NCBI GenBank assembly: GCA_025937835.1
Contig: JAICQO010000052.1
Location: 1 to 45,682 of the forward strand
Origin: Polyangiaceae bacterium
GTDB taxonomy: Bacteria; Myxococcota_A; Polyangia; Polyangiales; Polyangiaceae
Direction of reading: 5' to 3'
DNA: 45,682 bases
In this document: positions 12,146-45,682 of the stretch, piece after piece
Position numbering within the stretch: the first letter of the stretch is position 1
Layout of the letters: every line of letters begins with the position of its first letter
Translations under genes and position numbers: made by a program
Notes under the pieces: generated by a model
What the model saw: the letters and a program-made list of their open reading frames with translations, nothing else
What the model was told of the DNA's origin: nothing
Database searches by the model: none

Positions 12146-12345
12146 CCGCTGAAAAGGCGTGCTGCGTCTCGTTGCGAGGGCGCAACAGGAAGACCGGGAA
12201 GACAGGAAGTTTTGTTTTCTGGGTGCGACGGTTACCTCGTCGCGGTGCGCCGTTACTCGGCCGCGCTCAGCGCTCAGTGCAACCCCAAAATCCTTGGCGA
12301 TTCTTGGCGCTCCCCGGCGTCTTGGCGACAAAATCTCACCCGGGT
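12146..12345. repeat. Intergenic repeat mosaic between convergent genes
   Basis: This 200-nt gap holds two repeat-like blocks. Block 1 at 12183-12206 (ACAGGAAGACCGGGAAGACA core) is nearly identical to 32350-32372. Block 2 at 12251-12340 starts CGTTACTCGG, contains a GCGCTCAGCGCTCA stretch and then serial TTGGCG units (CCTTGGCGATTCTTGGCG). It aligns with 21027-21160. No coding sequence or terminator with a T-tract is evident. Both blocks sit between genes that converge, at the 3' ends of the zinc-ribbon/GYF gene and fabH. Confidence 0.6.
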
Positions 12346-21026: not shown

Positions 21027-21160
21027 CGTTACTCCGACGCGCTAAGCGCGCAGGGCGCACCCAGAACCTACGACTTTGGACGCGCTGAGCGCGCAAGGCG
21101 AACCCCAAAAACCCTTTGCGAGTCTTTGCCCCCTTGGCGCCTTTGCGGCGAAAACTCACA
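21027..21160. repeat. Dispersed intergenic element, copy B
   Basis: The stretch starts with CGTTACTCCGACGCGCTAAG and carries two closely related units (ACGCGCTAAGCGCGCA and ACGCGCTGAGCGCGCA). It continues AACCCCAAAAACCCTTTGCG, then serial TTTGCG/TTGGCG units, and ends GCGAAAACTCACA. It aligns along its length with 12251-12340, which lacks the duplicated unit. It occupies the gap between the convergent GT2 and DUF4336 genes. No open frame of interest covers it. Confidence 0.65.
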
Positions 21161-43956: not shown

Positions 43957-45066
43957 ATGAGAGCCCTTGCCGCCGCCCTCGCCGCGACCCTGGCGCTCGG
44001 CGTGTCCCGACCCGGCCTCGCCGAGCCGATGGACCCGGCGCTCGAGCGCCTGGTGTTGGATCCGGCCTGCCGTGACGAGCTCGGGCGCTTCGCGGACAGC
44101 GATCCGGCGGGGCTCGAGGCGGGGCCCGGCAAGCGCGCCTGGTGCGCGGAGGACAACGCGGCGTTCAAGAAGCTCGTCAGCCAGCTCGGGTTCGCGCTCG
44201 CGCCGACGGCGATGCACTCGGCGCGCACCACGGGTTTCGGCGGCATCGACGTCACGCTCGAGGCGGCCTACACCAAGATCAGCAACGACGAGCGCTACTG
44301 GAAGCTCGGCACCCAGGGCGAGCGCGACCCGAGCACCGACCGGCCCGCCTCCAGCAACGATAACCCCTCGGGTATACTATCGCTCTACTCCGTGCGGCTC
44401 CGTAAGGGCTTCGGCTTCGGCTTCGAGGTCGCGGGCTCGGTCGGCTTCCTCACCAAGACCAGCATCTTGAGCGGCGGCGCGGACATGCGGTTCTCACTGC
44501 TCGAGGGCTTTCGCACGGGGCTTCCGGGCTACGTGCCCGATCTCGCGGCCGGCGGCGGCGTGCGCACGATCACCGGCACTCCCGAGCTCCAGCTCACGGT
44601 GGCCTCGTTCGACATCCAGATCTCGAAGCCGATTCCGATCCAGGGTTTTTCGGTGCTAACCCCGTGGATCGGCCTGCAGCAGCTGTGGATCTTCGGCAAC
44701 TCCGGCAACATCGATCTGACGCCGGCGACGGACGCGCAGGCGTACTGCGGCTACGCGGGCCCGAACGTCCCCGGCAACCCCGACCCGAACAAGAATTACT
44801 TCGACGGACAACCCGTCTGCACCAACCCGAGCCCGGGCGCGGCCCGCGACTTCAACAACACGGTCGTGTTCGACGACGTCACCCTCGAGCGCAAGCGCCT
44901 GCTACTCGGCGTGGGCTACCGCTGGGAAATGATCAAAGCGGGCGTCCAGCTCATCACCGATTTGAGCTCCCCCGCCTCCGCCCAGAGCGACAGCGAAGAC
45001 GAACAGGACCTCGAAGGCGAAGCCCGCCAATGGGCGCTGGTCCTCGAGCTGGGCGCCGCGTTCTAA
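43957..45066 (+). CDS. Outer-membrane beta-barrel-like protein
   Basis: The 369-aa product has a signal peptide (MRALAAALAATLALGVSRPG, cleavage near GLA). A short Cys-containing N-terminal region (ACRDELGRFADSD, KRAWCAEDNAAFKKL) follows. The remainder alternates strands and loops (YSVRLRKGFGFGFEVAGSVG, LLGVGYRWEMIKAGVQLITD) and ends in LVLELGAAF with terminal Phe, as in outer-membrane barrels. A loop with two Cys (YCGYAGPNVPGN, QPVCTNPSP) may be closed by a disulphide. No transport or enzyme motif is recognised. It is followed by the repeat array and no further gene in the window. Confidence 0.78.
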   Translation: MRALAAALAATLALGVSRPGLAEPMDPALERLVLDPACRDELGRFADSDPAGLEAGPGKRAWCAEDNAAFKKLVSQLGFALAPTAMHSARTTGFGGIDVTLEAAYTKISNDERYWKLGTQGERDPSTDRPASSNDNPSGILSLYSVRLRKGFGFGFEVAGSVGFLTKTSILSGGADMRFSLLEGFRTGLPGYVPDLAAGGGVRTITGTPELQLTVASFDIQISKPIPIQGFSVLTPWIGLQQLWIFGNSGNIDLTPATDAQAYCGYAGPNVPGNPDPNKNYFDGQPVCTNPSPGAARDFNNTVVFDDVTLERKRLLLGVGYRWEMIKAGVQLITDLSSPASAQSDSEDEQDLEGEARQWALVLELGAAF

Positions 45067-45089: not shown

Positions 45090-45150
45090 CCGGAGAAACC
45101 GCCAGGGGCGCCAGGCAGAGCGCCACGGGCGCCAAAGGGGATTTTTGGGG
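45090..45150. repeat. Inverted flank of the 189-bp array
   Basis: The stretch carries CCGCCAGGGGCGCCAGGC and then CGCCACGGGCGCCA (45121-45134). Its exact reverse complement, TGGCGCCCGTGGCG, occurs inside the first array copy at 45292-45305. The flank is therefore built from the same CGCCA-type units as the array but in opposite orientation, and it precedes the first copy immediately. Confidence 0.6.
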
Positions 45151-45682
45151 GTCGCAGTGCTCGGCGGATCCAGTCACTGATCCAACGCTCGACTCCGTCG
45201 GCGGCTCCGGAGAGCGACTCGCAGTGACTTCGCTTCGACTCGTTGTGCTCGCCGCGCTGATCAAAAAAAATCTGGCGCCCGTGGCCCTCCCTGGCGCCCG
45301 TGGCGGTAAATCCCAAGCTCTTCAGTGCAGGACTCCGCCGTCGCAGTGCTCGGCGGATCCAGTCACTGATCCAACGCTCGACTCCGTCGGCGGCTCCGGA
45401 GAGCGACTCGTAGTGACTTCGCTTCGACTCGTTGTGCTCGCCGCGCTGATCAAAAAAATCTGGCGCCCGTGGCCCTCCCTGGCGCCCCGTGGCGGTAAAT
45501 CCCCAGCTCTTCAGTGCAGGACTCCGCCGTCGCAGTGCTCGGCGGATCCAGTCACTGATCCAACGCTCGACTCCGTCAACGGCTCCGGAGAGCGACTCGC
45601 AGTGACTTCGCTTCGACTCGTTGTGCTCGCCGCGCTGATCAAAAAAAATCTGGCGCCCGTGGCCCTCCCTGGCGCCCGTGGC
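45151..45682. repeat. Tandem array of a 189-bp unit, running off the edge
   Basis: Copy 1 spans 45151-45339, copy 2 spans 45340-45528 and copy 3 spans 45529 to the edge (154 nt seen). Copies are nearly identical. Copy 2 has one A fewer in its A run and one C more in CTGGCGCCCCGTGG, so length is kept at 189, and copy 3 has TCAACGG where the others have TCGGCGG. Each unit contains a near-palindrome GGATCCAGTCACTGATCC, an A run after GATC, and two TGGCGCCCGTGG stretches. No long open frame of credible composition covers it. Array size is unknown because it is cut by the window. Confidence 0.9.

Follow-up and report, generated by a model that had tools for sequence, protein, structure and literature searches.

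A 189-bp tandem array at a contig end of a Polyangiaceae genome as a probable amplification of one arm of a dispersed gene-end repeat family

What is the 189-bp tandem repeat array that follows the last gene of a Polyangiaceae contig and runs to the contig edge? The window, by which we mean the whole stretch of DNA analyzed (45,682 nucleotides), is the complete contig C205 (G000:C205:1-45682) of a 6.9-Mb genome assembled into 227 contigs. The initial annotation, made from the sequence alone, had left the nature of the array open, naming a structural RNA, a recombination site, and a decayed element as options; each unit now proves to contain one arm of a dispersed family associated with gene ends. 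The explanation that we favor, at a probability of roughly 0.6, is that one arm of a dispersed REPIN/BIME-like repeat was amplified in tandem at this locus to give the array and that the arms of this repeat act as gene-end signals. The features of the window on which the argument turns are as follows.

43957..45066, plus strand: gene before the array (369 aa), present in the ORF list and called by the gene caller
45100..45136, minus strand: left arm, an inverted single copy of the core, 33 nt past the stop of the gene at 43957..45066
45142..45151, plus strand (sense strand of the preceding gene): T-run and then G-run, after the left arm
45151..45682, plus strand: 189-bp tandem array (2.8 copies), truncated at the contig edge
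45166..45183, no strand assigned: imperfect inverted repeat GGATCCAGTCACTGATCC, described earlier as a palindrome and private to the array
45263..45306, plus strand: right arm of unit 1, with A-run 45263-45270 and four-word core 45272-45306
45452..45495, plus strand: right arm of unit 2, A-run and core 45460-45495
45641..45675, plus strand: right arm of unit 3, core cut by the window end
12294..12310, plus strand: further core of the family, before the end of a minus-strand gene
21103..21148, plus strand: weak further copy, CCCCAAAAA at 21103-21111 and then TTTGCG/TTGGCG-type words (below the core threshold and left out of the counts)

Tandem Repeats Finder assigns 45151-45682 a period of 189 with 2.8 copies, 97% matches, and 1% indels (score of 1020). 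In a common register, unit starts fall at 45154, 45343, and 45532, with lengths of 189, 189, and 151, the third being cut by the contig end, which bears out the head-to-tail arrangement reaching the edge. Units 1 to 3 are a few substitutions apart and have an A-run of 8 or 7; in unit 2, the A-run is one A shorter and one extra C lies about 25 bases later, which are the compensating 1-nt indels and slight divergence originally described. The A-run and TGGCGCC-type units reported for each copy are present as well, and these are the parts that recur genome-wide. The palindrome GGATCCAGTCACTGATCC exists but is imperfect, and by BLAST, it occurs in the genome only in the array and in contig C159. 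The exclusion of a CRISPR array stands, as the whole 189-bp unit is repeated at about 97% with no variable spacers. After the left arm, the T-run and G-run contain TTTTTGGGG at 45142-45150, for which the chance expectation in the window is 0.06. At the other end of the window, positions 1-142 carry the start of a 16S rRNA gene on the minus strand, cut by the left contig end (Rfam RF00177, 96.9 bits), and contig C205 thus breaks at repeats on both sides.

The far side of the array can be followed on a second contig. Beyond the core, the sole other match in the genome lies at the end of C159 (4115-4422, minus strand, 96% identity by BLAST). Read in reverse, C159 starts inside a unit, continues through one more unit with variants of its own, and then exits the array. 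The end of C205 and the start of C159 share a single exact overlap of 82 bases, and the two contigs probably belong together; if, via this overlap, unit 3 is the first partial unit of C159, then the array has four units, and more are possible. Read across the two contigs, the array sits between two convergent gene ends. The gene next but one to it on the far side encodes ribonuclease III (C159 2645-3376, L056, by Pfam).

Comparison with the same genus indicates when the array was acquired. The 369-aa protein encoded before it has no Pfam match, and its orthologs are present in six of the seven other same-genus genomes. At two of these loci, G001 (L316) and G004 (L321), an ortholog of the C159 gene (49% and 61% identity, respectively) comes next, encoded on the opposite strand; the convergent stops are about 25 bp apart in G001 and, as estimated from where the alignments end, under 300 bp apart in G004, and no array lies between the directly adjacent genes. 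At the other four ortholog loci, the C159 ortholog is nearby and is not the direct convergent neighbor. Because the gene pair is directly adjacent without the array in G001 and G004, the sequences show the array to be lineage specific, gained in this lineage. A search of the relatives with the 532-bp array as the query gave, beyond its own genome, one weak match each in 2 of 58 genomes.

Within its own genome, the same query returns 29 BLAST matches, and those outside C205 and C159 span only the A-run and the words that follow it (query positions of about 100-178, or the equivalent in unit 2); the remainder of the 189-bp unit, including the GGATCCAGTCACTGATCC palindrome, is private to the array. 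The portion common to the rest of the genome, about 50 bp per unit, consists of a C/A run followed by four spaced hexamer words. Pattern searches reveal a wider family: CTGGCGCCCNTGGCG occurs at 40 exact places and at 72 with one mismatch (versus 34 for the control), TTGGCG pairs number 97 (versus 20) and TTTGCG pairs 39 (versus 5), and the run preceding the words, CCCCCAAAAA, occurs 68 times, versus 0 for its reverse. Requiring an A-run of at least 3 plus enough words, we retained 90 of 150 word runs as strong cores, which are distributed over 42 fetched stretches of the genome and fall into three word types and 52 clusters outside called genes; 3 of the 90 lie in ORFs called inside an array on contig C45, and those ORFs look spurious. 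Outside the larger fetched stretches are 14 of the 97 TTGGCG-pair places, 6 of the 39 TTTGCG-pair places, and 11 of the 72 CTGGCGCCCNTGGCG places. Nine of these 31 were viewed: one (C19, L073) is a further core that obeys the positional rule described below, and eight have no A-run.

The cores have a regular anatomy. Word spacing is mostly 10/10/8 in the TTGGCG and TTTGCG types and 9/12/9 in the type found in the window, and all four words share the same G/T state in 34 of 44 four-word TTGGCG/TTTGCG cores, against 5.8 expected; none of 2,000 column shuffles reached this within-core likeness. Clusters of two to four cores, at steps of 86 to 251 bp, account for 21 of the 52, and the repeated units of the arrays on C45, C14, C215, C25, and C160 carry locus-specific flank, which argues for local duplication. 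Further word types may exist at C34:36183 (L070), C206 at about 22900 (L066), and C187 at about 1230 (L060), where CTTCCTGT- and CTTCC/TTCGACC-like runs stand beside family cores or after a C/A run. The open-licence literature, searched with the literal word sequences included, yielded no description of the core family.

To relate the cores to genes, we tested the rule that, on the sense strand of a gene that ends there, the words come before the T-run. A first orientation count put 69 of 75 cores (43 of 48 clusters) in line with the rule (0.47 expected), but this was too lenient, as any core in a convergent spacer points toward a stop whichever its direction, and we replaced it with a count per spacer (n = 41). 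In convergent spacers with cores of a single direction, the stop that is faced was the nearer one in all 13 (P of 0.0001), and core direction was correct in 6 of 6 spacers between tandem genes. Where a spacer holds both directions, all minus cores lie left of the plus cores (11/11), an inverted, outward-facing order that would also be expected from a paired inverted element, so that we place the weight on the single-direction spacers. Among spacers at contig ends, six obey, two disobey, and two are not judgeable, and the single divergent spacer disobeys, making 3 exceptions in 41; one of the two at contig ends (C45 55675) rests on an ORF call that looks spurious. The nearest core is 17 to 58 nt from the stop in 34 of 43 clusters, divergent spacers are avoided (they contain one of the 38 clusters flanked by genes on both sides), and the rule is followed within each word type (12/13, 20/23, and 11/12 clusters). 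At the level of sequence, then, the location, polarity, and pairing of the arms are established.

The three word types differ in their capacity to fold. Scoring 86 of the 90 strong cores for a stem of -9 kcal/mol or better beside the T-run, with six shuffles each, we found such a stem in 89% of the 28 cores of the window's type (25/28, a GGCGCC stem) versus 43% of shuffled sequences, in 12% of the 40 TTGGCG cores versus 30%, and in 11% of the 18 TTTGCG cores versus 19%. The stem is thus not common to all word types, as the latter two are not above their shuffles and yet follow the same positional rule. At the locus itself, the left arm (45100-45136) and the first array core are inverted copies of one another, and 45090-45320 folds at -127 kcal/mol (z of -6.98; 0 of 200 shuffles as good). 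Ten of the 11 both-direction spacers were folded (one was too long), nine of them with z from -2.1 to -11.6 and one with -0.7; many cores, however, occur in a single direction. A simple terminator consensus scan identified a single site, located within the upstream gene and not in the array (0.5 expected by chance). As for the structural-RNA option, no Rfam family reached its gathering score in the array region; a subthreshold match to a microRNA precursor (45097-45307, 29.5 bits versus a gathering score of 137, E of 0.0059) spans the inverted pair.

On the favored explanation, the amplified unit would be one arm plus spacer and outer flank. At this convergent junction, the left arm follows the plus-strand gene and the repeated right arms face the gene on C159, and the arms would signal gene ends in both directions. 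Their most likely job, as far as sequence features can tell, would be transcription termination or protection of the 3' end, perhaps assisted in the window's word type by the GGCGCC stem near the U-run, and paired arms could form one large hairpin. Extra copies might arise through slippage or unequal recombination and be tolerated in a spacer flanked by two gene ends. What the arms do to transcription, how they spread, and how they were amplified are all matters that we infer. That the arms work as gene-end elements is suggested by the polarity of single arms, which exceeds the location bias described for REPIN/BIME repeats in the available parts of PMC3116915 and PMC3733652. Weighing against this explanation are the two word types in which a stem near the T-run is no commoner than in shuffles, the empty terminator scan of the array, the three exceptions among 41 spacers, the missing rule in two relatives with TTGGCG repeats, and the failure to find a RAYT-type transposase that would account for spread. 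Tandem arrays are a known habit of bacterial repeats, while the present family looks unusual.

Alternatively, the family could be a selfish REPIN/MITE-like element with no host function, whose inverted arms a trans-acting transposase disperses and which is now and then duplicated in tandem; arms would then survive where they are least harmful, between convergent genes, and one of a pair would be lost over time. We regard this as possible, if rather doubtful. It accommodates the single inverted order of the 11 both-direction spacers, the avoidance of divergent spacers, and the tandem clusters described for REPINs (in the parts of PMC3116915 available to us), but mere tolerance does not predict that genes set the direction of single arms, as in the 6 tandem-gene and 13 convergent spacers. 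Nor did we detect a Y1/RAYT transposase: a search for RAYT-type proteins (PF01797) gave no match in the genome at an E value of 0.001 or better, whereas the control was positive in 5 of 14 genomes; at 96% completeness, this genome probably lacks one, though not with certainty.

Also in line with the selfish reading, TTGGCG arms occur in relatives as inverted pairs without the orientation rule (loci in G030, G087, G026, and G003). In eight chosen genomes, the four richest included, runs of three TTGGCG words are numerous in G087 (75), G030 (93), and G036 (57), each against 0 in the control, and in G026 (58 versus 2), and are few in G003 (4 versus 2), G027 and G016 (5 versus 0 in each), and G006 (0). 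G030 has both single arms and paired inverted arms; the loci viewed in G087 and most of those in G026 are paired inverted arms, typically ending in CTTGGCGGTT. Dispersed TTGGCG-arm elements in G030 (L230-L249) are near identical; many form inverted pairs with some 17 bp between the arms, and they lie either way round relative to genes. No gene-orientation rule was apparent in 20 regions each of G036 (10 versus 8) and G030 (14 versus 15). Similarly, in 20 regions of G034 with the word-free signal TTTTTGGGGG, 15 follow a stop, 12 do not, and 3 lie in genes (0.41 expected), and this signal is a different dispersed repeat. G034, of the same family, also contains CCCCCAAAAA 266 times, versus 0 for its reverse, as part of another dispersed repeat (T-run, G-run, and GGTTGG-like) without gene-end polarity. 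A gene-end rule general to the bacterial family is rejected, as it fails in G036, G030, and G034, and its absence from the sampled relatives limits the rule to the genome under study.

The TTTGCG form is distributed patchily: its triples were found in 9 of 112 genomes of the phylum and are numerous only in this genome (13) and in G143 (15). A 22-base core pattern matched five stretches in a genome-contig collection that possibly left out the genome studied here: three, within long open frames, appear to be chance matches, and two, from one Verrucomicrobiota assembly, have three spaced words, one being intergenic and one inside a 98-aa ORF. These two (L311 and L314, JAADHD01) consist of an A-run, two TTGGCG words, and one TTTGCG word and resemble the family described here.

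A further reading, which we consider improbable, dispenses with the hairpin. Four like hexamers on one helical face would bind a putative oligomeric or repeat protein, which would halt RNA polymerase once it reaches the T/G run, any hairpin being incidental; words would be interchangeable between types and kept alike within each element, and convergent pairs would multiply the signal into arrays. The regular spacings, the excess of like words within cores, and the adherence of two word types to the positional rule with no stem near the T-run are all in keeping with such a code. However, the candidate protein is still hypothetical, slippage or conversion could also yield like words, and the window's own type does have a stem.

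That a single copy was miscounted as an array, the assembly artifact of which the initial annotation had warned, is hardly credible even though the array stops where the contig does and at least 12 contig ends have cores within about 260 bases, because its copies carry distinct substitutions, C159 continues the array with a further variant copy, and same-direction core clusters recur at about 20 other places, several of them inside contigs (C162, C215, C187, and C44). Among other joins, the end of C83 and the start of C25 have like arrays with an exact 128-base overlap and may be adjacent, as may C160 and C182 and likewise C202 and C45, whose facing ends have like cores with no exact overlap found. 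We also rejected a protein-coding repeat (open frames cross the array on both strands, none is scored as a gene by the gene caller, and in the final copy on C159 the A-run deletion lacks its compensating C), a known RNA, given the Rfam result above, and plasmid DNA, for which there was no match.

An orphan tandem repeat thereby becomes a class that can be tested genome-wide; at several points in this assembly, contigs break where such arrays lie. If the arms do end transcripts, this bacterium marks gene ends with dispersed, tandem-amplified repeats, whose hairpin and non-hairpin types obey a single positional rule; otherwise, the family is REPIN-like but has no detectable RAYT, and what moves it is yet to be found.

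Compared with known systems, the repeat has a REPIN/BIME-like architecture but, judged on sequence, is not a proven member of that class, as no RAYT was found and two of the three arm types are mostly not stem-forming palindromes (the window's type has a GGCGCC stem, the TTGGCG and TTTGCG types mostly none). Like REPINs, as presented in the accessible parts of PMC3116915, it has inverted arms with a spacer, a predicted hairpin, dispersal in extragenic space, and tandem clusters of near-identical units, flanks included; unlike the REPINs of those parts, its arms are four hexamer words, not one short palindrome, and are often single and tied to gene ends. REP/BIME repeats with GTAG and CGTC tags are, according to the portion of PMC3733652 available, found mostly after coding regions, in spacers of convergent or unidirectional gene pairs, and their large clusters consist of a unit repeated in tandem together with its flanks. 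The present family resembles them in its placement after coding regions and in tandem units with flank, and it differs from that account in having a T-run and G-run after the words and in its arms, those aligned by eye showing no form with a GTAG/CGTC tag and a 20- to 40-bp palindrome. From Rho-independent terminators, as covered in the available part of PMC12306157, the family is set apart by its dispersal, its tandem amplification, and its two word types without a stem near the T-run, and it is like them in its position after the stop and, in the window's own type, in a stem followed by a T-run on the sense strand.
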